A stretch of DNA of 64,000 bases, taken from positions 372,001-436,000 of the forward strand of contig NZ_JQMP01000004.1 of NCBI RefSeq assembly GCF_000744775.1, read 5' to 3'. The stretch comes from Thermorudis peleae (GTDB lineage Bacteria; Chloroflexota; Chloroflexia; Thermomicrobiales; Thermomicrobiaceae). Below are positions 38,624 to 48,365 of the stretch, piece after piece (within the stretch, counting starts at the first letter, position 1; every line of letters starts with the position of its first letter). The notes under the pieces were generated by a model. That model did no database searches. It had not been told where the DNA came from and saw only the letters and a program-made list of their open reading frames with translations. The translations under genes were made by a program, and so were the position numbers.

Positions 38624-38708
38624 TGGAGAGGTGGCCGAGTGGTTGAAGGCGGCGGTCTTGAAAACCGCAAGGCGATGAGCCTCGGGGGTTCGAATCCCTC
38701 CCTCTCCG
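38624..38708 (+). tRNA. tRNA-Ser (anticodon TGA)
   Basis: The acceptor stem is GGAGAGG paired with CCTCTCC, discriminator G at 38708, anticodon loop CTTGAAA with TGA, a long class II variable arm, and T-loop GGTTCGAATC. CCA is not encoded. Its 3' part from 38651 on lies in the 169-bp repeat that bounds the integrated element, so the present gene is a junction of host 5' half and one repeat copy. Confidence 0.95.
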
Positions 38709-38819
38709 CCGGGCGAGACCAGCCTGGGAAGGTGCCTGAGAGGTCGAAAGGGGTCGCCTGCTAAGCGATTGGGGCTGGCATAACCGGCCCCCGTGGGTTC
38801 GAATCCCACCCTTCCCGCC
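38651..38819 (+). repeat. Left 169-bp direct repeat (attL)
   Basis: Matches 48197-48365 base for base except one position (38741 A, 48287 C). It contains the 3' half of tRNA-Ser(TGA), the 17-bp spacer and the whole tRNA-Ser(GCT) gene. The crossover point cannot be placed more exactly within the identity. Confidence 0.93.
38726..38817 (+). tRNA. tRNA-Ser (anticodon GCT), left copy
   Basis: The acceptor stem GGGAAGG pairs with CCTTCCC, the anticodon loop is CTGCTAA with GCT, and a long variable arm (CTGGCATAACCGG) marks a serine tRNA. It lies 17 bp after tRNA-Ser(TGA), wholly inside the 169-bp repeat, and differs from the right copy only at 38741 (A here, C there) in the D-loop. Confidence 0.95.
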
Positions 38820-39084
38820 TGCATGGGGTCAGCCTGGGGTCGGTGCCCCATGCGCAGAAAAACGGCATGCCCCCGCCTGGCCTGGCCAGCGGGGGCAGTG
38901 TTCCGGGTACACTTACGGCTGCCGGGCCACCCGATCTGGCCTGGCCATCCCCCGGCACTGCGCCTACCAGTGGCCGGGGATTTCTCGTGCTTCCCTGGTA
39001 AGGTACGAACCCTGTTGGGGCCAGTCTACGTGCTGGCCCCCGGAGCGTCAAGGAGCCCCGGGGACGTTCCCCCGGGGTTGCGGC
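38820..39084. other. Hairpin-rich non-coding left end of the element
   Basis: In 265 bp at least five GC-rich inverted repeats occur: GCATGGGG/CCCCATGC (about 38821-38852), GCCCCCGC/GCGGGGGC (38869-38896), a long imperfect stem 38947-38981 followed by TTTCTC, GGGGCCAG/CTGGCCCC (about 39016-39041) and AGCCCCGGGG/CCCCCGGGGTT (about 39055-39078). Some may be terminators; together they could form an origin or packaging structure. Confidence 0.6.
38824..38843 (+). other. Candidate integrase arm sites, left end
   Basis: TGGGGTCAG (38824-38832) and TGGGGTCGG (38835-38843) stand 11 bp apart just inside the left repeat. The same motif, twice at the same 11-bp spacing, occurs just inside the right repeat. 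Confidence 0.45.
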
Positions 39085-39348
39085 CTAGAACGGAATCAGC
39101 CAGGTCTCATCCTCCTCAGTGGCCACGGGGATGATGGCCGGGTAGCGGGCCTGGGAGCGCTGGGCCTGCCGCTCTAGCGCCCGCATCCGGCGCTGAGTAG
39201 CGAGTTCGCCCCGGATGTAGTCGGTCGCAATGCGCCGCCCCAGCTCATCACCAAACCACTCCCGGAATTCCAGCGCCTCCGGGGCCAGCCGCTCAATGGT
39301 CTCCCAGGTGTAGTACCAGGTCCGCTGTGGTGTCGGTGTCGTCGCCAT
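39085..39348 (-). CDS. Small charged protein at the left end of the element
   Basis: An 87-residue protein of unknown function, with a predicted long basic helix (LATQRRMRALERQAQRSQAR) in its second half and a WYYTWETIERLAPEALEF segment near the start. The ATG at 39348 follows AAAGGAG and a near-consensus promoter (TTGACA, 18 bp, TATTAT). It is transcribed divergently from the Cro/C1-type regulator, the place where phages and satellites keep the gene that opposes or is controlled by the repressor. I do not recognise its family. Confidence 0.6.
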   Translation of the reverse strand: MATTPTPQRTWYYTWETIERLAPEALEFREWFGDELGRRIATDYIRGELATQRRMRALERQAQRSQARYPAIIPVATEEDETWLIPF

Positions 39349-39366
39349 CGCTCCGCTCCTTTCCCT

Positions 39367-39414
39367 TGCACCCCTATAATACCACAATGCACACACTGGT
39401 GTCAAGGGGGTGCA
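39367..39414 (-). promoter_or_regulatory. Promoter with paired operator-like sites between the divergent regulator genes
   Basis: On the minus strand TTGACA (39400-39405), 18 bp and TATTAT (39376-39381) form a near-consensus promoter for the 87-residue protein. It is flanked by the inverted pair TGCACCCC (39367-39374) and GGGGTGCA (39407-39414), which are exact reverse complements and candidate binding sites for the HTH protein encoded at 39452. Confidence 0.6.
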
Positions 39415-39451
39415 CCACGGTATGCTGAGGAACCGAGAGGGGGCTGCGCCG

Positions 39452-39682
39452 ATGGACGTCAAACCACTGCGGCAATGGCGGATTGAGAAAGGCTACGGGC
39501 TCAAAGAACTGGCCCGGCGTGCTGGGGTCAGCCACACGACCGTCTTACGCATCGAACGGGGTGAAACCCACGGCCAGGCGGGCACCTACCGCAAGCTGGC
39601 CGAGGCCTTGGGGTTACCCGGACCACTCGCCATCCTCGAATACCGGCAATTGGTGCAGGCTGGGGAGGATACCCCGGGATGA
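39452..39682 (+). CDS. Cro/C1-type (XRE) HTH regulator
   Basis: A 76-residue single-domain DNA-binding protein: QWRIEKGYGLKELARRAG, then VSHTTVLRIERGE is a textbook XRE helix-turn-helix. The ATG at 39452 follows GAGGGGG. It faces the minus-strand genes of the element across 103 bp with operator-like sites, so it is the likely repressor that keeps the element silent. It lacks the C-terminal protease domain of LexA/CI repressors, so induction would need another route, such as a helper-phage antirepressor; that is inference. Confidence 0.85.
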   Translation: MDVKPLRQWRIEKGYGLKELARRAGVSHTTVLRIERGETHGQAGTYRKLAEALGLPGPLAILEYRQLVQAGEDTPG

Positions 39683-39807
39683 TTCCCAGGGGACGGTCCC
39701 CGTATTTTTCAGGTATTTTTCCACCCTTAAAAAACGGCCTGGGGAGAAGCCCATTATCCCCCACGTTGCATTGGATAATTCCCCTCCCTCCCCAGGGCCA
39801 GCGTTCC

Positions 39808-39939
39808 TCAGTCCTGGCGGGCAGCGGAACGCTCTGGCCACTGGGGAGTCCCATCCCAGCCGCAGGTAGGGCACGGTGGCCGGGGTGTGGGGCGGGCCAG
39901 CTGCTGCTCCAGGCGGGTCAACCGGCGGGTTCGGTTCAT
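39808..39939 (-). CDS. 43-residue zinc-knuckle protein
   Basis: A very short gene starting at ATG 39939, which overlaps the stop of the TerS-like gene (ATGA), so it is coupled to it. The product begins MNRTRRLTRLEQQLARP and contains CPTCGWDG, one CxxC knuckle. In phages a small CxxC protein after the small terminase is common, but no function can be named. It is the last gene of the leftward operon of the element. Confidence 0.55.
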   Translation of the reverse strand: MNRTRRLTRLEQQLARPTPRPPCPTCGWDGTPQWPERSAARQD

Positions 39940-40322
39940 GCCGTCTTCCCTTGCTGCTCCACCAGGGTCTCAAGGGCCGAGAGCCGCTGTTCAATGTCCA
40001 CCTGTTCCGTCAGTTTCAGGAGATGGGAGAGCACGCTGTTGGCCGCTGAGACTTTACTGGGCCAGGGGGCGGCCGGATCGACCATCGTCTGCTGCAACGT
40101 GGCCACGGCGACCAGGGCGGCCTGGCGGAGGTGGCCCAGAATCTGCTCTAGCTGCTGCTGGGCCAACGTCCGGACATACTGCTGCATGGCCGGCTGCTTG
40201 AGCCAACGTTTGGCGGTGGCCTCCGAAACCCGGGCCACCTGGCATGCCTCCTTCAGGCTCCGACAACCCACGTAGGCCACGGCAAAGCGTTGCTGTCGGA
40301 CCGACAGCTCATTTCGGCTCAT
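39936..40322 (-). CDS. Terminase small subunit-like HTH protein
   Basis: A 128-residue protein. Residues 5-50 (LSVRQQRFAVAYVGC, then SLKEACQVARVSEATAKRWL) have the pattern of phage small terminases and phBC6A51-type HTH proteins, followed by a helical oligomerisation region and a C-terminal coiled coil (IEQRLSALETLVEQQ). In phage satellites a TerS redirects the helper packaging motor to satellite DNA. No large terminase is present in the element. A plain HTH regulator is the alternative. Confidence 0.6.
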   Translation of the reverse strand: MSRNELSVRQQRFAVAYVGCRSLKEACQVARVSEATAKRWLKQPAMQQYVRTLAQQQLEQILGHLRQAALVAVATLQQTMVDPAAPWPSKVSAANSVLSHLLKLTEQVDIEQRLSALETLVEQQGKTA

Positions 40323-40342
40323 CTGCGGCCACCTTCAGCACG

Positions 40343-40495
40343 TCATCCCCACTGCTGCACCCGCTGGTCGGCCAGGGAGCGGTCGGCCGTCCGCTCGGAG
40401 ATGCCGGCCGACCTCGCCGCCTCAGGGACGCTCCGGCACTCGAAGAGCGCCTGCACGAACTGGAGCTGCTTGGGGGTCACGTCATTTCGTGCCAT
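40343..40495 (-). CDS. 50-residue HTH peptide, truncated paralogue of the TerS-like protein
   Basis: The product MARNDVTPKQLQFVQALFEC, then PEAARSAGISERTADRSLADQ corresponds to the N-terminal HTH of the TerS-like protein downstream, and it stops right after the HTH. The start lies within the end of the upstream zinc protein gene and the stop is 20 bp before the TerS-like start. It could be a stand-alone DNA-binding domain that competes with TerS, or the decayed remains of a duplication. Confidence 0.6.
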   Translation of the reverse strand: MARNDVTPKQLQFVQALFECRSVPEAARSAGISERTADRSLADQRVQQWG

Positions 40496-40751
40496 TGTCT
40501 GCCACCCGTTGCCCAGTCACTTGGGCCAACCATTGCTGGGTCAGCACCCACAGCGGGCCTTCGTCCTGGATCTCGATCACCTCACCCGCCCTGGCCATCT
40601 GCACCATGATCGCCAGGTCCTGTTCCAGATATACGAGAAACGTGTCGAGCAACCGCTGGCAGTCGCTGCACAACCGGCCATTCCCAGCCTTCATCCTGCC
40701 ACAAACTCGGCACTGGCACTGCTCAAGCCGGTGGAGCCGTCGTCTCAGCAC
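40482..40751 (-). CDS. Small zinc-finger protein
   Basis: An 89-residue protein with CQCRVCGRMKAGNGRLCSDC near the start, a four-Cys zinc site, followed by a helix-rich region. The GTG at 40751 follows GGGGAGG; the open frame further upstream is a shadow of the nuclease gene. It overlaps the nuclease gene by 29 bp and the 50-residue HTH gene by 14 bp, so it is part of the same operon. Function unknown; size and zinc site resemble phage late-transcription or terminase-associated proteins, but nothing specific can be claimed. Confidence 0.6.
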   Translation of the reverse strand: MLRRRLHRLEQCQCRVCGRMKAGNGRLCSDCQRLLDTFLVYLEQDLAIMVQMARAGEVIEIQDEGPLWVLTQQWLAQVTGQRVADNGTK

Positions 40752-41046
40752 CGTGCACCTCCCCGAACCACGCCTCGAAGTCCTTGAGTCGCAGCACCAC
40801 CAACGCTTCACGGTAGCGCTGGCCATGCTGGTGCAGGATGGCGATGGGGAGCTGGCTTGGCTGTGCGGCCCGTTCCGCCTGCTGCACGGCCCCCAGGATC
40901 CACTGGGGAAGGGTCTTGCGGTGCTTGACTTCAATCGCCAGCCAGGGATGCCGGATATCCGGCTGGCCCACACGGCCACTCACCGGCACCCGCTCCCCAC
41001 CCACCAGCTTGGCAAGCGCTCGTTCAGCATATTTCCAGGTGCGCAT
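40723..41046 (-). CDS. Small PD-(D/E)XK nuclease, Holliday-junction-resolvase-like
   Basis: A 107-residue protein with the catalytic pattern GQPDIRHPWLAIEVKHRKTL: the Asp, then ExK nine residues later, of the restriction-endonuclease fold. An N-terminal KYAERALAKLVGGERVPVSG segment is typical of the small phage-encoded resolvase-like nucleases, where the Glu of the helix completes the site. Its place directly after the replication genes suggests processing of replication or recombination intermediates. No methylase is nearby, so restriction activity is unlikely. Confidence 0.72.
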   Translation of the reverse strand: MRTWKYAERALAKLVGGERVPVSGRVGQPDIRHPWLAIEVKHRKTLPQWILGAVQQAERAAQPSQLPIAILHQHGQRYREALVVLRLKDFEAWFGEVHGAETTAPPA

Positions 41047-41055
41047 CGCCGTCTC

Positions 41056-41472
41056 CTACCAGTAGCATGGACAGTTCCGGCACCCCGGCAAGCCGTCGTA
41101 GAGCCGCCGGTAGGCCAGGTCGTAGGCCTCCCGAGAACGCAACGCTGGATGCCGGGCATACCAACCGACCAGGGTGCGGAGCCGTGGTTTGATGCCCACA
41201 TACCCTCCATAGCCATACCAGATGGCGTTGGCACAGGTCGTTGTCGCCCAGCGGAAGACGTCGGGCGGGAGTTCGACCGGCAAGGCCAGGAGTTGCCGCT
41301 TGAGCTGGTCCATCCGGCGGTATGCCCGGACTTCCCGTTCAAGCTGGGCCAGTTCCGGTTCGAGGTCAACCAGGCGTTCCCAGCTCAGGGCCGCTGGGGG
41401 CAGGGCCTGGCTGGTGTCTGGCATGGGAGTTTCAGGCCATCCAGCAAACGAGACCGGCGTTCGTTCAGTCAT
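41056..41472 (-). CDS. Conserved element protein of unknown function next to the replicase
   Basis: A 138-residue protein starting at ATG 41472 inside the last codons of the replicase gene. It has a helical middle (LAQLEREVRAYRRMDQLKRQLLALP) and an aromatic end with three cysteines (GLPGCRNCPCYW), perhaps a metal site. The residues FRWATTTCANAIWYGYGGYVG suggest a compact fold. I do not recognise it. Tight coupling to the replication protein suggests a role in replication initiation. Confidence 0.55.
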   Translation of the reverse strand: MTERTPVSFAGWPETPMPDTSQALPPAALSWERLVDLEPELAQLEREVRAYRRMDQLKRQLLALPVELPPDVFRWATTTCANAIWYGYGGYVGIKPRLRTLVGWYARHPALRSREAYDLAYRRLYDGLPGCRNCPCYW

Positions 41473-43900
41473 CCTCCACCTCCGTGACATCATGCCCATC
41501 CGCTGACTGCTGCACGGCCAGCCAGCGCTCCAGGACCTCGGGATAGGCAATCCCCAGCTGGTCGTACTTGCGCTTGGTGCACCAGCCGCAGTAGAGCTTG
41601 AACGTGGGGACCGTGATGGGCGCTCCACACTCGACACAGGCCCTGGCCGGTTCATCTGCCCACGCCAGGGAGGCCTGCTCAGCCGGGCCAGCAGCCTGCT
41701 CGGTCGCCTGCTGCCGGGCCGCCTTCTTGCGGCAAGCATCAGAGCAGTACTTCGCTGGTTTCCCACGCCCGGACCAGCCAAAGGCAGCGCCACACCACTC
41801 GCAGATGGCAGTTTTGGCGTCTGCATCGAAAATGTCCGGTTTTCCGGGGTCGTGTCCGGTTTTCTCGGTGAGGCCCTGTCCGCCATTTTTGGCTTCGTGA
41901 TGCGGAATGTCCGGTTTTCCGGGGTCGTGTCCGGTTTTTCCAGCACCCGCAAAATTGGCGATTTCCGCATCGTGATGGGAAATGTCCGGTTTTCCGCCGG
42001 AATTCTTTTCTTCACGCTTAGGGGTATAGCGTGAAGAAAAGAATTCATCCCCCATTTCGTGACATTCCGCATCAGGACGGCCACTGTCACGAAACGTCCC
42101 TGGGGCAGTCTCCGCACGGGATGGTTCGCCGGGCACTGACCAGCGGTAGGGGTCGCCCCGCTTGCCGCTCCCGTCCCGGTGCACCCGACCAGCCTGGTGG
42201 AGGGCCTTGAGCCGCTGGGCGACCGTGGGGTAGGGCAACCCCGTCGCCTTGGCCAGGTCTTCGGTCGTCGCTGCCCCACTGTCAACCAGGGCGGCCAAGA
42301 GCTGAGCACATTGGGCCTCGACCGCATAGGCTGCCGGTGTCCCCAGCGTCTCGTAGACGCCGTCGCCATCCCAGCGCACCACCACCTCGAACGGTTCGTA
42401 GCGGGAGTAGATGGTGAGCACCCGGCGGGTGTCATCGGGTTGCTCAGGCTCAAGCCGCCGCATCTCCACGATAATGTCAACGAAGCCAGCGATGGCCCCC
42501 GACCCCCGCCCGGCCGTCGCCTGGCCCCCATCCCCCTTGCGAGGATGGCGCAGGAGCAGGACCGCCGCCCCCGCACTGGCAATCGCCTGCAGGGGCAGGA
42601 GGGCCGAGACCGTCTCACTGGCATCGTTCTCATCCACGACGCACCACAGGTTCGGCAACGCATCGAACACGACCAGGTCGTAGCCCTCGCTGCCCACCAG
42701 GGTGACCAGGTAGTGGGTGAAGAGGCGCCACTCGGCGTGGGTGGGCCGCTTGGGGAACGGGCGGCTGATCAGGTGGACGTGTGCCCCCAGGCCCAACGCC
42801 GCTGCCCGCTCCGCCCACTTGACCTTCGGCTCTTCGGAGACCACCAGCGCTTTGCCGGGGGCAACGGGCCGCCCGGCCAGCTCCCCACCAGCCGCCATCC
42901 GCTGGAGCAGGGCGGCCACCAACGTGGTCTTCCCGCTCTTCCAGAGGGCGTAGAAGTCAGTGAGGTGGCCTTTCGCCAACACCCCATCCCAGAGCCACTC
43001 GACGGTGGCCGCCTCGTCGGCCAGGTCGGTGAGCATGACCGGCTGCCAGTGGTCGGGGATCGAGGATGATGCGGCATCCCGCTCATCATCGCCTGGGGAC
43101 GATCCCCCAGCATGCCTGCCGTTGTGGGTGATGAGGATGGGGTTCTCTTCCCAATGGCCGGTGGAGGAAGCGATGGCCTCCAGTTCTTTATCAGGCAACG
43201 GTTCCTCACAACGCCGATTCATCGCCTTGAGCACCATCAGGATTTCGTCGGGCTCCAGATGGCCATCCCCCCGCAGCCAGCCAGCAACCCGGACCAGGGT
43301 GAGATGCCGGATTCCCGTGGGGATGGTGCGTTTGAGCGTTGCGCTGAGCGGCTCCTGCCGATGGCCATTGAGCTGGGGGGCATCAGGCTGGGGGAGGTCA
43401 TCTGGCTCCAGCTCCAGTGCCTCCTCCGGCTGTTCCGAGAGCCAGCGGTAGTCGTGTTTGGCACCCAGCTTGAAGGCCCTGGTCGGTGGGGCAAAAATGA
43501 GACCACCAGCCCCTTTGATATCACCCCACGGATGCTTTTGGGTGGGAACGGGCCGCTCACTCAGGCAGTACACGTGGAGGCCACCACGTTGCGATTCGGC
43601 CACCAATCCCTGCCGCCATCCCAGACACTCGACATCTAACCAGTTCTCGGCCCTGGCCCGGTACTGGGGTTCGACGTCCCAGACCCACCAGTACTTGCCC
43701 GACTGGGGCTCTCGGTGGCCGCAGATGATGGCCAGGCCGTCGGCTCTGTCCCAGGGCCACGTGGTCATGTCGTCGGGGACTGGGGGCCGGTCCTTGAAGC
43801 GTTCCCATTTGACCAGGGGTGTGCCCTGGTGAATGGGAATGGCCGGGAGCCCCCAGGACTGGTACTCGCTGGCCCGTTGGTGTAGCATGGTGACCGTCAT
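41465..43900 (-). CDS. Replication protein: primase-polymerase plus RepA-like helicase
   Basis: An 811-residue multidomain protein. The N-terminal 200 residues fit the bifunctional primase/polymerase (Prim-Pol) domain: WVWDVEP acidic motif, a GGLHVYC motif and GGLIFAPPTRAF. A RepA-type AAA ATPase follows, with WKSGKTTLVAALLQ as Walker A (about residue 320) and YDLVVFDALPNLW as Walker B. Next come a winged helix (TTEDLAKATGLPYPTVAQRL), three 25-residue repeats and two C-terminal zinc ribbons (CEWCG with CSDAC; CVECG with CGWC). It should unwind and prime the element's own DNA. The ATG at 43900 follows AAAGGAG. Satellites and small plasmids use such fused replicases. Confidence 0.85.
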   Translation of the reverse strand: MTVTMLHQRASEYQSWGLPAIPIHQGTPLVKWERFKDRPPVPDDMTTWPWDRADGLAIICGHREPQSGKYWWVWDVEPQYRARAENWLDVECLGWRQGLVAESQRGGLHVYCLSERPVPTQKHPWGDIKGAGGLIFAPPTRAFKLGAKHDYRWLSEQPEEALELEPDDLPQPDAPQLNGHRQEPLSATLKRTIPTGIRHLTLVRVAGWLRGDGHLEPDEILMVLKAMNRRCEEPLPDKELEAIASSTGHWEENPILITHNGRHAGGSSPGDDERDAASSSIPDHWQPVMLTDLADEAATVEWLWDGVLAKGHLTDFYALWKSGKTTLVAALLQRMAAGGELAGRPVAPGKALVVSEEPKVKWAERAAALGLGAHVHLISRPFPKRPTHAEWRLFTHYLVTLVGSEGYDLVVFDALPNLWCVVDENDASETVSALLPLQAIASAGAAVLLLRHPRKGDGGQATAGRGSGAIAGFVDIIVEMRRLEPEQPDDTRRVLTIYSRYEPFEVVVRWDGDGVYETLGTPAAYAVEAQCAQLLAALVDSGAATTEDLAKATGLPYPTVAQRLKALHQAGRVHRDGSGKRGDPYRWSVPGEPSRAETAPGTFRDSGRPDAECHEMGDEFFSSRYTPKREEKNSGGKPDISHHDAEIANFAGAGKTGHDPGKPDIPHHEAKNGGQGLTEKTGHDPGKPDIFDADAKTAICEWCGAAFGWSGRGKPAKYCSDACRKKAARQQATEQAAGPAEQASLAWADEPARACVECGAPITVPTFKLYCGWCTKRKYDQLGIAYPEVLERWLAVQQSADGHDVTEVEDD
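41831..41996 (-). repeat. Tandem 75-bp repeats inside the replication gene
   Basis: A 33-bp unit beginning AATGTCCGGTTTTCCGG recurs at 41831-41863 and 41906-41938, with a 16-bp part at 41981-41996. The period is exactly 75 bp, giving a 25-residue protein repeat that contains GKPDI and, at its end, KTGHDP. It forms a flexible linker between the winged helix and the zinc ribbons. Confidence 0.85.
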
Positions 43901-43963
43901 CAGTGAACTCCTTTCGAACAACCCTGGTGGCCGGGGGCAGGGTGAACCCCCGGCTACTGGTCC

Positions 43964-44227
43964 TTATCCCTGCCCAATCTCAGCACCGACGGGGATGCCC
44001 TCACGTAGTACCCGTCGCTGGCAGGCATCACAGAGGTAGCCCCAGCCCCACGCTGTATCCGTGAGGCAGTCTTCGGTGACACTCCAGACCACCGCACCGG
44101 CCGTGAATTGCTGACCACAGAGCGCACAGCGTACCTTTCCGGCATCCTCCAGTGGGACCGAAATGCGGTCGAAGAAGGTGTACAAGACGTCACCATACTC
44201 AAAAACGGTCGGCCTTGGCTCGTGCAC
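43964..44227 (-). CDS. Zinc-ribbon protein of the element
   Basis: An 87-residue protein with two CxxC knuckles, RCALCGQQF and YLCDACQRR, about 30 residues apart. The GTG at 44227 is preferred because AGGAGG lies six bases before it; the ATG two codons earlier would touch the ribosome site. Function unknown. It lies upstream of the replicase in the leftward operon, with a 63-bp gap. Confidence 0.6.
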   Translation of the reverse strand: MHEPRPTVFEYGDVLYTFFDRISVPLEDAGKVRCALCGQQFTAGAVVWSVTEDCLTDTAWGWGYLCDACQRRVLREGIPVGAEIGQG

Positions 44228-44280
44228 CGGCATCCTCCTTTCACGAGTGGCCCCGGGGCGAATCCCCCAGGGGCCACGTA

Positions 44281-44664
44281 TCAGAACACCTCGTCATCCG
44301 CATCGCCATCAGCCGGGAGCACCGTCTCAATCCGGTTCGTCTCCGACCCGTCAGGCCGGGCCCCTCGGCCAATCACCACCTTGACGGGCAAACCGATGAG
44401 CGTTTCCGTATCAACCGTCTCCCCAGCCTGGAGCTTGCGGCCAAGGGCGGCTTCAACGAACCCCCGGGCCACGCTCTTGGGGCCAAAGGCCATCGACGTT
44501 GGCCGCCGGACCGTGACCGACTTCGGCCCGGCAGTGACCGTGAAGACCCACACCAGGTAGCGTCGGCCGCTGCCATCTTCTCGTTCATCAACGGCAGTAA
44601 TCTCGGCGTCGTACAGGCCGGGCTTGAGCAAGACGTCGCCGCTGGTAGCGGTTAAGATGGGCAT
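44281..44664 (-). CDS. Conserved element protein, possibly ssDNA-binding-like
   Basis: A 127-residue protein rich in beta strands (LYDAEITAVDEREDGSGRRYLVWVFTV, then LIGLPVKVVIGRG) with an acidic tail ending ADGDADDEVF. The layout of a beta-barrel core and acidic C-terminus is that of phage DUF669-like or other single-strand-binding proteins, but no diagnostic motif is visible. The ATG follows AAAGGAG. Its place before the replicase would suit a replication accessory factor. Confidence 0.55.
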   Translation of the reverse strand: MPILTATSGDVLLKPGLYDAEITAVDEREDGSGRRYLVWVFTVTAGPKSVTVRRPTSMAFGPKSVARGFVEAALGRKLQAGETVDTETLIGLPVKVVIGRGARPDGSETNRIETVLPADGDADDEVF

Positions 44665-44700
44665 CGGTTTGCTCCTTTCACCGTGACTCCAGCAATCCCT

Positions 44701-45072
44701 TCACACCTCAACCATTCGTTCGACAAAAGGCCACTCCAGCCATGGGCATCGCTCGAACCACCGCATGGACACGTACAGTTCACCGTCATCGCCAACCTGG
44801 CCGACACGCTCGGCGACATCGAGCGGGAGTCGATAGCACCGCCGTTCCTGGTCGAACCGCACGATCCAGGCCGTCGCCCCCGCTTGCCGGGCCAACCTGA
44901 GGGCCTCAGGCGGCAAGCTGGGGGTCGAAAAGTGGCGGCCTTTGACGGGCATGGCCACGACAATTTCGCCGGTCGGCCAGGCCCGCACCACCTTGGCCAA
45001 GGTACAGATCTTCCCACGCTTCTTTTTGGTTATGGCAAAGTCTGGCGAGAGCGTCGATACTAGAGGTATCAC
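44701..45072 (-). CDS. Hypothetical protein of the element
   Basis: A 123-residue protein with no recognised family. It mixes strands and helices (GEIVVAMPVKGRHFSTP, then LPPEALRLARQAGATAWIVRFD) and ends in an aromatic-rich WFERCPWLEWPFVERMVEV. The GTG start follows GGAGATGG. It lies between the excisionase-like gene and the 127-residue protein on the same strand. Confidence 0.5.
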   Translation of the reverse strand: MIPLVSTLSPDFAITKKKRGKICTLAKVVRAWPTGEIVVAMPVKGRHFSTPSLPPEALRLARQAGATAWIVRFDQERRCYRLPLDVAERVGQVGDDGELYVSMRWFERCPWLEWPFVERMVEV

Positions 45073-45125
45073 GGTCCATCTCCATTCCTTGTTGGTCGGT
45101 CAGGTGGTGCCAGCGCCTGGCCGAC

Positions 45126-45365
45126 TTACTCCACGGGCTGCATGCCACTGGCAACGGGCGTCGTCACGGTCCCATCCTTGCCTCCTTTCTTTGCCCGCTC
45201 AACGGCGATCCGCTCGACTTCCTGGGGAGGGATAAGCCTCCCCAGTGGGGTCTTCACGCACGCCATCCGGCCGGTCTTCAGCCAGGTGCGCACCCGCTCA
45301 ACCGAGACCTCGAGCATCCTGGCTGCTTCCGCTGGGGTCAGATACTCCGTGGTCAGGTCCTGCAT
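45126..45365 (-). CDS. Excisionase-like winged-HTH protein
   Basis: A 79-residue protein. Residues 6-55 (YLTPAEAARMLEVSVERVRT, then WLKTGRMACVKTPLGRLIP) have the MerR/excisionase HTH pattern found in many Xis proteins, which bend att DNA and steer the integrase toward excision. The ATG at 45365 follows AAAGGAGG. It is divergent from the 249-residue gene across about 100 bp with four short direct repeats. A plain regulator is the alternative, as the family is mixed. Confidence 0.72.
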   Translation of the reverse strand: MQDLTTEYLTPAEAARMLEVSVERVRTWLKTGRMACVKTPLGRLIPPQEVERIAVERAKKGGKDGTVTTPVASGMQPVE

Positions 45366-45410
45366 CGTCTCCTCCTTTCGTGACCTGGCACTGGTATACT
45401 GACTTTTGCC

Positions 45411-45460
45411 TGCGGAGTAGAGGCCGTCGGCTGCGGAATGGTGCGGAGTACTGCGGAGTT
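45411..45460 (+). repeat. Four iteron-like direct repeats
   Basis: TGCGGAGTA at 45411, TGCGGAATG at 45432, TGCGGAGTA at 45442 and TGCGGAGTT at 45452, spaced 21, 10 and 10 bp, so all lie on about the same face of the helix. They occupy the divergent region between the excisionase-like gene and the 249-residue gene, ending just before the latter's GTG. Confidence 0.6.
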
Positions 45461-45466
45461 CCCTTC

Positions 45467-46216
45467 GTGCCGAAGACGAAAGAGCCTGGGAAGCACCTGG
45501 TCCCCGAAGTGCGGGCGTTCATCGATGCCGAGTTTGCGAAGGGCAAGACCGCTATCCAGGTCCATCGGGAGCTTGAGCGGCTCCGCCTGGATGAACGCCA
45601 GCGCTGGAACCGGTTGGGGGACGTTCCGTCCGACGACCTCTTCGTGTCGTACCGGCGCATCGCCGAACGTTGGCGCTGGTGGAAGGAGCGCCACGCTGCT
45701 GGCCCCCTAGCCAGTGAGCCGGGAACGCCTGTAGCGGGACATGGTGGGACACCGGCTGTCCAGAACGAGCACTTCCGTTGGTGCCAGCTCCCACCAGATG
45801 ATGCCCGGCTGGTGCTCACGGCCATCGCCGCCTGGGAAACGATCACCGGGACGTCGTGGGGGATCCTCAGTCGCCAGGTCGCTGAGACCATCGCCTACCT
45901 TGCCCGTGTCGCCCCTGACCTGCCGCCCCAGGCGGTCGCTGCGCTTGCTGACCAGACCGCCCGCTGGGAGCACTTGGACCCCGGCGAGCAGGAGCGCCGG
46001 TGGAACGCCCTCGGGCGGTTCCTCGGATACCGGCCGTGGGCGTCCCCCGACGCCGCCGTGCGGTACCAGGCAGCCGTTGGCCACGACAGCCACGTCACCC
46101 CGACCAAGGACGGCCTAGCCGTGTACGCCATCATCCTCTCGGCCACCGCTATCGGAAGTAGCGACGCCCGGGCGAGCCTCTCCGTCGGCTCACACTTCGA
46201 GCCCCAGCACCAGTGA
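45467..46216 (+). CDS. Element protein of unknown function on the opposite strand
   Basis: A 249-residue protein, one of only two rightward genes in the element. It is rich in Trp and Arg, starts MPKTKEPGKHLVPEVRAFID, and continues with a basic helix (RRIAERWRWWKERHAAGP). The second half is helical (RLVLTAIAAWETITGTSWG, LARVAPDLPPQAVAALADQT). The GTG at 45467 follows GGAG and overlaps the last iteron-like repeat region. No family is recognised. Basic N-terminus and placement next to the repeats suggest DNA binding or origin control. Its end overlaps the convergent 114-residue gene by 27 bp. Confidence 0.55.
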   Translation: MPKTKEPGKHLVPEVRAFIDAEFAKGKTAIQVHRELERLRLDERQRWNRLGDVPSDDLFVSYRRIAERWRWWKERHAAGPLASEPGTPVAGHGGTPAVQNEHFRWCQLPPDDARLVLTAIAAWETITGTSWGILSRQVAETIAYLARVAPDLPPQAVAALADQTARWEHLDPGEQERRWNALGRFLGYRPWASPDAAVRYQAAVGHDSHVTPTKDGLAVYAIILSATAIGSSDARASLSVGSHFEPQHQ

Positions 46217-46534
46217 GGTCACCCTCTCATCATCTGGCACCTGGTGGCACCCCGTGTCACCTCCATCTGGCTCGTAGTCGTTCTGCAAGAGCCACCGTAC
46301 CGCCTCAGCCTCGGTCACTTCCTCCCAGCGGTCGGTGCTCCCCTGCCACTGGCTCCACCAGTGCCGAATCCAGCGGCCGCTCTTGGTCCGGTACAGCTCC
46401 TCGTGGTCCCACTGGCTGCCGGTCGCTTTCGACACCCAGTTCCGTCCGTCCCACTCCCGAGCCTCATCGAACCGGGTCGCTTTCTCCCGGTCAAACCAGC
46501 GCCCGGTCCCATCCGTCAACACCTGTCGCTTCAT
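46190..46534 (-). CDS. Trp-rich hypothetical protein of the element
   Basis: A 114-residue protein with ten tryptophans in repeated short motifs: GTGRWFDREKAT, REWDGRNWVSKAT, YRTKSGRWIRHWW, STDRWEEVTEAEA. The repeats suggest a beta-rich fold made of similar units. The ATG at 46534 follows GGGAGG and lies 13 bp after the previous gene. No family recognised. Confidence 0.55.
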   Translation of the reverse strand: MKRQVLTDGTGRWFDREKATRFDEAREWDGRNWVSKATGSQWDHEELYRTKSGRWIRHWWSQWQGSTDRWEEVTEAEAVRWLLQNDYEPDGGDTGCHQVPDDERVTSLVLGLEV

Positions 46535-46547
46535 CACGGTCCTCCCG

Positions 46548-46898
46548 TCAGCAGTCTTCAGGCCACAGGCCAAGGTCAACCAAGGCCGCCCGCACCTGGG
46601 CATGCCGGTCCTGCAGCCCTTCCATGGCGGTGGTGAGCGGGCCACTCCCCCGCCACAGCACCTGGCTGATGTCCTGGTCCTGGGCTTCCAGCACTTCCTC
46701 CAGGGCCGCCTGGTCGTCATCTGTCCAGCAGCCCACCCGTTCGGCAAGGGCGGCCAGGACGAGAGCCCGTTCGTAGGCGTGCTGGGCCAGGGTCAGGGCC
46801 GCCTCAGCCACCGCCCGCTGGGCATGCAGCAGGTCACGCAAGGAAACCGTGAGCGAGAAGAGGGTGGTCGTCGGTCCGTCATCAGTCGAGTGGGTCAT
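46548..46898 (-). CDS. Helical hypothetical protein of the element
   Basis: A 116-residue protein, almost wholly alpha-helical (LLHAQRAVAEAALTLAQHAY, then DDDQAALEEVLEAQDQDIS), acidic overall. The ATG at 46898 follows GGAGGCGCAAGCG. It lies 110 bp downstream of the integrase gene on the same strand. No family recognised; it could be a small structural-mimic or regulatory protein. Confidence 0.5.
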   Translation of the reverse strand: MTHSTDDGPTTTLFSLTVSLRDLLHAQRAVAEAALTLAQHAYERALVLAALAERVGCWTDDDQAALEEVLEAQDQDISQVLWRGSGPLTTAMEGLQDRHAQVRAALVDLGLWPEDC

Positions 46899-47008
46899 CG
46901 CTTGCGCCTCCATTCAGCGCCGTGTGCTGTTCCGTCCGTCGCCCCCATGGGCCCCCGCAGGCCCACTGGCGCTGGGTGGAGCCCGTGCCCGCATGGCCGC
47001 CCTCCCCT

Positions 47009-48085
47009 TCAGGACAACAGCGCCTGTTCGACCGCCCGGGCCACCCAGTGGCCGTCAGTGATGGCATGGCTGTAGAGCCCACTGGTAATCGCCGGCGTGG
47101 CATGACCCAGCCGCCGGGAGACGTCCGGGAGTGGCACCCCAGCGGCCAGCGCCAGGCTGACATGGGCATGCCGGAGCTGGTGCACCGTCAAGCGGGGAAT
47201 CCCGGCCTGCTGGCAGCACCGTCGCACCGCAGCGAGCACGACCGATTCTTGCTGGGGCTTGCCGGTCTGGCTGGGGAAGACCAGGCCCCAGTCCTGCCAG
47301 GCCGGGCCTGCCCGTAACCGCCGTTCGGCCACCAGAGCCCGCTGCCGCTTGAGCAGCTGCACCCCCACGTCTCCCAGTGGGATGCACCGGTGCCCGTTCA
47401 CGGTCTTGGGGGGAGTCTCCACCCACTGGCCCCGGAGCCACTGGCCACTCCGATCGACCCGCACCAGTGCCCGGTCCAGGTCAACCGCAGCCCAGCGCAG
47501 CGCCAGTGCTTCCCCAAGCCGCACCCCGGTCAGGAGCAGCACGCCCACCAGTGGGGCACCCGGATCGGGACTGGTCAGGCAAACCTCGAGGAGCCGTTTG
47601 AGGTCATCCAGGGCAGGCAGGGCAGGCCGTGGAGGCTGGTAACGGGGCAGCACCAGCCGGTCACAGGGGTTCTCGGACAGATACCCCCAGCGCACTGCCA
47701 CGGCAAAGAGCCGGTGGAGCACCCGGGCCGTCTGGCTGGCTGCCCGGCCGGGGATGCTGTCCAGCACCTGCTGCAGCCGGTCAGGGGCGAGGTGGGCCAG
47801 CCGCACCCCACCAAGGCTGGGGAAGACGTACTGCCCCAGCAGCCGCTGGTAATCGGCCAACGTGCGGGGCTTCCAGTGCCGGGCCTCGGTGGCCAGCCAG
47901 CGCTGGGCCAGTTGCCGCAGCGTGAGCCCGCTGGGCGGGGTCCGCCCCTCGGCCAGCTGCTGCTGGAGCGCTGCCAGCTTGGCCTGCACCGCTGCTTCAC
48001 TGGGGCCGTAGAGGCTCTTCCGGCGGCCGTTGACCATGATGCGGGCCTCGTACCGCCCATCGTGCCGTAACCGGATCGTTCCCAT
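47009..48085 (-). CDS. int: Tyrosine recombinase (integrase)
   Basis: A 358-residue phage-type integrase. The N-terminal 60 residues are an AP2-like arm-binding domain (RHDGRYEARIMVNGRRKSLY), followed by the SAM-like core-binding domain and the catalytic domain with Arg in LLTGVRLGEALAL, HxxR in VHQLRHAHVSL, His in LGHATPAIT and the nucleophile Tyr in SGLYSHA. The ATG at 48085 follows GGGAGG. It sits 112 bp from the right repeat and should carry out integration into, and excision from, the tRNA-Ser site. All active-site residues are present, so the element may still be mobile. Confidence 0.93.
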   Translation of the reverse strand: MGTIRLRHDGRYEARIMVNGRRKSLYGPSEAAVQAKLAALQQQLAEGRTPPSGLTLRQLAQRWLATEARHWKPRTLADYQRLLGQYVFPSLGGVRLAHLAPDRLQQVLDSIPGRAASQTARVLHRLFAVAVRWGYLSENPCDRLVLPRYQPPRPALPALDDLKRLLEVCLTSPDPGAPLVGVLLLTGVRLGEALALRWAAVDLDRALVRVDRSGQWLRGQWVETPPKTVNGHRCIPLGDVGVQLLKRQRALVAERRLRAGPAWQDWGLVFPSQTGKPQQESVVLAAVRRCCQQAGIPRLTVHQLRHAHVSLALAAGVPLPDVSRRLGHATPAITSGLYSHAITDGHWVARAVEQALLS

Positions 48086-48135
48086 CGATTGCCTCCCTCC
48101 TGGGCAAGGGGGAAGCACGGGGTTCCCGGCCGGGC

Positions 48136-48155
48136 TGGGGTCAGGCTGGGGTCAG
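48136..48155 (+). other. Candidate integrase arm sites, right end
   Basis: TGGGGTCAG occurs at 48136-48144 and 48147-48155, 11 bp apart, between the integrase start and the right repeat, mirroring the pair at the left end. Confidence 0.45.
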
Positions 48156-48196
48156 GGGCTGGGGAAGGCCGTGGGGATGGGCTGGGGACTGGGGAA

Positions 48197-48254
48197 GGCG
48201 GTCTTGAAAACCGCAAGGCGATGAGCCTCGGGGGTTCGAATCCCTCCCTCTCCG
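48197..48254 (+). pseudogene. 3' fragment of tRNA-Ser (TGA)
   Basis: The fragment begins in the anticodon stem and runs to the discriminator base; the 5' half (acceptor strand and D-arm) is missing and replaced by element sequence. It is the displaced 3' half left by integration at this tRNA gene. Confidence 0.9.
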
Positions 48255-48271
48255 CCGGGCGAGACCAGCCT

Positions 48272-48363
48272 GGGAAGGTGCCTGAGCGGTCGAAAGGGGT
48301 CGCCTGCTAAGCGATTGGGGCTGGCATAACCGGCCCCCGTGGGTTCGAATCCCACCCTTCCCG
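48272..48363 (+). tRNA. tRNA-Ser (anticodon GCT), right copy
   Basis: A complete second copy of tRNA-Ser(GCT), with the same anticodon loop CTGCTAA and acceptor stem; it differs from the left copy only by C at 48287 in the D-loop. It lacks the promoter that serves the left pair unless transcription comes from within the element. Confidence 0.9.
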
Positions 48364-48365
48364 CC

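Follow-up and report, generated by a model that had tools for sequence, protein, structure and literature searches.

A tandem tRNA-Ser site holds an integrated element

We analyzed a 64-kb window of Thermorudis peleae DNA, part of contig C4 in a 2.93 Mb genome assembled into four contigs. Within this window, at 38651-48365, lies an element that an initial annotation had described as a 9.7-kb PICI-like phage satellite (PICI, phage-inducible chromosomal island) integrated at tRNA-Ser. The element is bounded by direct repeats of 169 bp (38651-38819 and 48197-48365, plus strand; 168/169 identical, E 1e-87) that span most of a tRNA-Ser(UGA) gene and the whole of a tRNA-Ser(GCU) gene. ARAGORN finds a tandem tRNA-Ser(UGA)-tRNA-Ser(GCU) pair at 38625-38819 and a second at 48170-48365. 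The left tRNA-Ser(UGA) (38625-38710, plus strand; attL) is complete by alignment to 12 relatives and is followed by tRNA-Ser(GCU) at 38726-38819; the right repeat holds the 3′ part of tRNA-Ser(UGA), whose 5′ end has been replaced, and the whole of tRNA-Ser(GCU). Removing the stretch between the repeats and joining the flanks restores one normal tRNA-Ser pair, and alignment of 12 other genomes of the family shows this pair as a single tandem, the arrangement of an empty site. GC content is 65.9% in the element and 56.1% in the remaining window.

Just inside the two repeats lies a further pattern, TGGGGTCAGSCTGGGGTC, found at 38824-38841 and 48136-48153 (plus strand) and nowhere else in the window with up to two mismatches allowed (expected 0.01). 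It consists of two direct repeats, which suggests integrase arm sites, as expected for a tyrosine integrase. A matching pair stands at the end of a related element beside tRNA-Leu in another genome of the family, G118. In the same genome, an arm-type pair with one base changed adjoins an empty tRNA-Ser pair (L119 3058-3075), which suggests the scar of a past occupant. Repeats, tRNA-Ser copies, GC contrast and arm pair agree on the location first proposed; the 9.7 kb is correct for the full span, and the element measures 9,546 bp when one repeat copy is counted. The 169-bp repeat, the arm sites and the single-copy empty site in 12 relatives together form an attachment site of the kind that PICIs have. 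A search of the host genome found no second copy of the element.

Predicted genes for integration, replication and packaging

The element encodes a tyrosine integrase (47009-48085, minus strand; PF00589, 2.9e-19; PHROG_1, 2e-57) that keeps the catalytic residues R..HxxR..H..Y, and an xis/AlpA-like helix-turn-helix (HTH) protein (45126-45365, minus; HTH_17, 3.7e-8; TIGR01764 just below cut-off). A primase-helicase gene (41465-43900, minus) combines PriCT_1 and AAA_25 domains with a winged helix and a C-terminal Zn domain. The initial annotation had listed an integrase with intact active site, an excisionase-like protein and a fused primase-helicase, and these matches bear it out. To its list we add a Holliday-junction-resolvase-like nuclease, hjr (40723-41046, minus; PHROG_244, 6.7e-12 and our alignment A2, with a weak Hjc match in the PDB), and a candidate replication origin, described below.

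In Pfam and PHROGs scans of the element's proteins, no model for structural or lysis proteins, large terminase (TerL), portal, capsid, relaxase, conjugation or type IV secretion (T4SS) gave a match, and FtsK/TraB and partition genes were likewise not found. The only open reading frames of at least 400 aa are the primase gene and an out-of-frame one overlapping it. This agrees with the earlier statement that structural, lysis and large-terminase genes are missing; capsid or conjugation genes, named there as evidence that would speak against a satellite, did not turn up. The element contains none of the TerL, portal and capsid genes of a tailed prophage, and none of the relaxase, FtsK/TraB or T4SS genes of an integrative and conjugative element (ICE) or its actinomycete type (AICE). 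PADLOC identified no anti-phage system in the element and gave weak matches only. The primase has no close relatives in the phage and plasmid collections searched. Further primase-like genes in the host, at C3:200.6 kb, at C4:4.7 kb and on C2, were set aside as distant and not demonstrably of the same kind. Contig C2 1-13034 repeats the start of C4 (C4 1-8000), by assembly redundancy or duplication, and each of these stretches holds one of the distant primase-like genes.

The protein encoded by terS1 (39936-40322, minus) resembles small terminase subunits (TerS), with an HTH and two long helices. It matches the PHROG TerS profile at 3e-5, and its homologues match down to 1.5e-9; against Pfam Terminase_2 it scores 20.8 bits, under the 26.1 cut-off. 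Our alignment A1 of this protein aligned with the TerS encoded beside TerL in IMG/VR contig L080 at an hhalign probability of 96.9% over 94 columns, and hmmsearch against the PDB returned the TerS 3zqp at 0.008. AlphaFold predicts the HTH and both long helices, at pLDDT 76.7 from the single sequence and 85.6 with an alignment. The top Foldseek match to this model in the PDB is 2AO9 (prob 0.97, E 0.19-0.35), which is listed as a nonameric TerS (PMC7672466), and in a viral library named small terminases rank top (prob 1.00, best E 2.6e-3). Scanning IMG/VR with a ten-member TerS alignment returned one contig without TerL; scans with primase alone and with TerS alone returned nothing. Fold, profile and synteny are independent lines that agree, making the identification of TerS1 as a TerS credible. 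As in a satellite, the element would then have a gene for packaging recognition while lacking TerL and virion genes. The initial annotation had counted more than one TerS-like protein; the second, terS2 (40343-40495, minus), is a truncated, HTH-only fragment of 50 aa.

The earlier description also named a divergent Cro/C1 regulator. A divergent regulator is indeed predicted, in the form of g4 (45467-46216, plus), which is divergent from xis and faces the replication operon; the Cro/C1-type HTH gene (39452-39682, plus; Pfam HTH_31/HTH_3) lies at the opposite, far left end. The placement of g4, a candidate master regulator, recurs in three related elements: as in the window, a g4-like gene is set opposite xis or the replication genes in L087, L062 and L136, and the L087 relative matches HTH_48. 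Short repeat arrays stand beside these genes in the window (TGCGGAGT), L087 (ATTTTCGCT) and L062 (ATTTCCCC); none was seen beside that of L136. The window array (45411-45460, plus) consists of TGCGGA(GT) repeats in the gap separating xis from g4; it is weak against shuffles and is suggestive of an operator.

The candidate origin (41806-42046) lies inside the primase gene, where five exact copies of TGTCCGGTTTT (expected 0.03) accompany a perfect 19-bp inverted repeat and a local GC minimum of 45%. G118 has copies of AAAACCGAACA at similar spacing. Five iterons and a dip in GC fit the description of PICI origins. The 75-bp spacing of TGTCCGGTTTT also follows a repeat within the protein that the gene encodes, and may therefore have its cause at the protein level.

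Among the other minus-strand genes, three have relatives in comparable settings: g17 (39085-39348), a small protein by the left end, whose relative adjoins a tRNA-Thr pair in the family genome G123; g7 (44281-44664), whose relative in a different Chloroflexota genome (L076) adjoins a gene for a primase; and g6 (44701-45072), conserved and 43% identical in the element of G265. A short RLxRLE-type protein (39808-39939) overlaps the end of terS1, and in relatives the homologues of terS are followed by a small gene of this kind. A weak match marks g12 (40482-40826, start uncertain) as a small zinc-ribbon-like protein; g10 (41056-41490, start uncertain) matches no family, and g8 (43964-44233) encodes a small Cys-containing protein. 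Between g4 and the integrase gene lie g3 (46190-46534), conserved in the element group, and g2 (46548-46913).

Related elements and hjr-bearing phages

Scans with the hjr alignment A2 and related searches identified seven other repeat-flanked elements of 6.6-9.4 kb that have hjr, an integrase and a primase/helicase in common. A sample of 400 genomes spanning the phylum contained hjr in 8, which makes the group widely distributed yet uncommon. Two elements reside in the type strain Anaerolinea thermolimosa IMO-1: L090 (6.6 kb; 48-bp repeat, tRNA-Val) encodes a helicase, primase, hjr, TerS, a small Zn protein, g3 and integrase, and L087 (7.6 kb; 46-bp repeat, tRNA-Pro) encodes g4, a D5-type primase, hjr, TerS and integrase. 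L143 (83-bp repeat, tRNA-Arg) has the order int-g3-g6-primase-hjr seen in the window, and L088 (30-bp repeat) combines xis with replication genes, hjr and integrase. L136 (1-8696, G251:C317) has int, g4, xis, primase and hjr between copies of a 50-bp repeat that resembles a tRNA 3′ end; this is a short contig with the 50-bp sequence near both ends, so it represents either an integrated copy with very little flanking DNA or possibly a circle that was assembled as a contig. Cargo differs among the others. In L094 (3202-11291; 23-bp repeat, tRNA-Gly) it consists of a restriction enzyme of the SacI type plus a likely DNA methylase, and in L091 (5079-13344; 78-bp repeat, tRNA-Arg) of a single fused prohead protease-capsid gene (PF05065, 1.2e-27; TIGR01554, 2.3e-22). 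A prophage is present as well in the metagenome-assembled genome with L091, and the prophage TerL shares 53% identity with the TerL of the hjr-bearing IMG/VR phage L078.

The G118 element ends in primase-hjr-TerS-Zn protein-tRNA-Leu, and hjr precedes TerS without TerL in four elements: those of the window and G118 and both from A. thermolimosa. In another family, a locus of G230 (L140 8243-10489) places hjr and a Cys-rich KGG-type protein, which PHROGs did not recognize, next to a tandem tRNA-Ser(UGA)-(GCU) site like that of the window.

The hjr-TerS pair also occurs in tailed phages. In IMG/VR contigs L079 and L080, hjr stands just ahead of TerS, TerL and portal, and in L168 it is followed by an HTH gene and then portal; other hjr-bearing phage contigs in IMG/VR place it elsewhere. 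These phages resemble the element in keeping hjr and TerS close and in the same order, and differ from it in carrying TerL, portal and further late genes. Candidate helpers may be sought among hjr-bearing tailed phages, perhaps those of the hjr-TerS-TerL type.

The host itself has a compact virion cluster at C3:127711-136684 (L153 15712-19901, L154 1-4784). After a capsid gene (PF05065) at C3:129609-130622 come genes for a portal of SPP1 type, an adaptor, a terminase-like ATPase (recognized by motif alone, with no Pfam match) and an amidase. Of 158 genomes in the class, 47 have this type of capsid; most genomes of the family have it once, mostly at 64-82% identity within the family, and gene order in the cluster is largely conserved in G114. 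The cluster looks vertically inherited and is possibly a gene transfer agent of Chloroflexota. As a general helper for the element group we rejected it: only 2 of 9 tested genomes have it, and the Anaerolinea strains that harbor sibling elements lack it.

A candidate phage satellite and its alternatives

Tycheposons and virion-encapsidated integrative mobile elements (VEIMEs) use a site-specific recombinase at tRNA genes, and some carry packaging genes. These marine satellites (cited in PMC11389934) have other hosts and other replication genes. Phage-inducible chromosomal minimalist islands (PICMIs; PMC10803314) share its reduced gene content, and no capsid-remodelling gene was recognized in the window element; the PICMIs known so far come from Vibrionaceae and have virulent-phage helpers. 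PICIs, including Staphylococcus aureus pathogenicity islands (SaPIs) and Gram-negative PICIs, come closest in architecture: like the element, they have an att-specific tyrosine integrase, a divergent regulator facing xis (Stl/Rpr in PICIs, g4 here), a primase-rep accompanied by iterons and an AT-rich stretch, terS downstream, and no structural or lysis genes (PMC6092414). The PICIs SaPIbov5 and PmCI172 carry a capsid gene, as does sibling L091 (PMC6092414). The order of regulator, xis, pri-rep, ori and terS is that of PICIs. The element's 9.5 kb (relatives 6.6-9.4) compares with ~15 kb in PICIs, a size that is typical rather than required (PMC6092414). Unlike PICIs, it has a conserved hjr before terS, Chloroflexota hosts and a primase that has no close relative among the phage and plasmid records searched.

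We consider it likely that the element is an integrated, probably still intact phage satellite, a Chloroflexota variant working like a TerS-carrying PICI. This reading is favored by the repeats and arm sites, the intact tRNAs, the set of int, xis, primase-helicase, hjr and TerS without TerL or virion genes, the synteny of hjr-TerS with phage packaging genes, the recurrence of minimal elements, and the capsid-bearing sibling L091, as some PICIs carry capsid. The satellite-like character first proposed is upheld and extends to a related group; PICI is supported as an architecture, not as membership in that class. For the recent activity suggested by the initial annotation, near-identical repeats and intact reading frames are indirect evidence. 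In such a satellite, g4 would repress the divergent xis/replication promoter through the TGCGGA repeats until infection by a helper lifts repression. Int and Xis would then excise the element as a circle, the primase-helicase would replicate it from the iterons, and hjr might process branched or concatemeric DNA. A TerS ring would finally mark element DNA for the TerL of the helper, a tailed phage and perhaps one of the hjr-TerS-TerL type, leading to packing into helper capsids.

Several observations weigh against a satellite. The integrase gene runs in the direction of the replication genes, unlike in classical PICIs. Single TerS tests are weak, with the Pfam score below gathering and no Foldseek match passing E 0.001, and TerS was not seen in siblings L136, L143 and L094. 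A resident prophage, suggested at the outset as a possible helper, was not identified: portal (PF04860) and terminase (PF03237) searches of the host genome gave no match, and the only virion genes found there form the conserved C3 cluster of another type. Some of these points would also suit a phage-independent element that excises, replicates and reintegrates by itself and has reused a TerS-like HTH protein for replication or regulation: the TerS calls depend mostly on the HTH half, L136 and L143 have int, primase and hjr without TerS, no helper was found, and primase-iteron replicons occur in plasmids too. We regard this as unlikely, given that the long-helix part of TerS1 is likewise TerS-like, that hjr-TerS is syntenic with phage packaging genes, that one sibling carries a phage capsid, and that relaxase or transfer genes and a plasmid match for the primase are lacking.

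A prophage that has lost its late genes would account for the order int, replication, hjr, TerS and then att, like the early part of a phage genome cut off at the terminase, and for the truncated terS2. The recurrence of the same minimal layout in independent copies at different tRNAs and in different families weakens this explanation, as do intact reading frames, repeats identical at 168/169 positions and the uniform 6.6-9.4 kb of the complete relatives, and we judge it very improbable. That the element's TerS redirects the particle of the resident C3 cluster, making the element a satellite of a gene transfer agent, is less probable still. Least probable is a mobilizable or integrated plasmid or AICE-type element of the host lineage: a primase-helicase fusion with iterons is a common plasmid replicon design, but FtsK/TraB, relaxase and partition genes and any plasmid match are missing, and a phage-type packaging gene appears to be present.

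The novelty in Chloroflexota claimed by the initial annotation is consistent with the literature searched: for phage satellites and Chloroflexi we found no paper in the open-access literature, and for PICI and Chloroflexota an unrelated match only. A satellite at this locus would carry the range of PICI-like satellites beyond Firmicutes and Proteobacteria, the source of most described examples, into a deep phylum that includes many thermophiles. Several complete copies exist, two of them in the cultured A. thermolimosa IMO-1, so induction and packaging are accessible to testing, and the hjr-TerS pair common to elements and phages offers a lead to possible helpers. Comparing siblings that vary in their TerS, capsid or restriction genes would reveal how satellites are pieced together.

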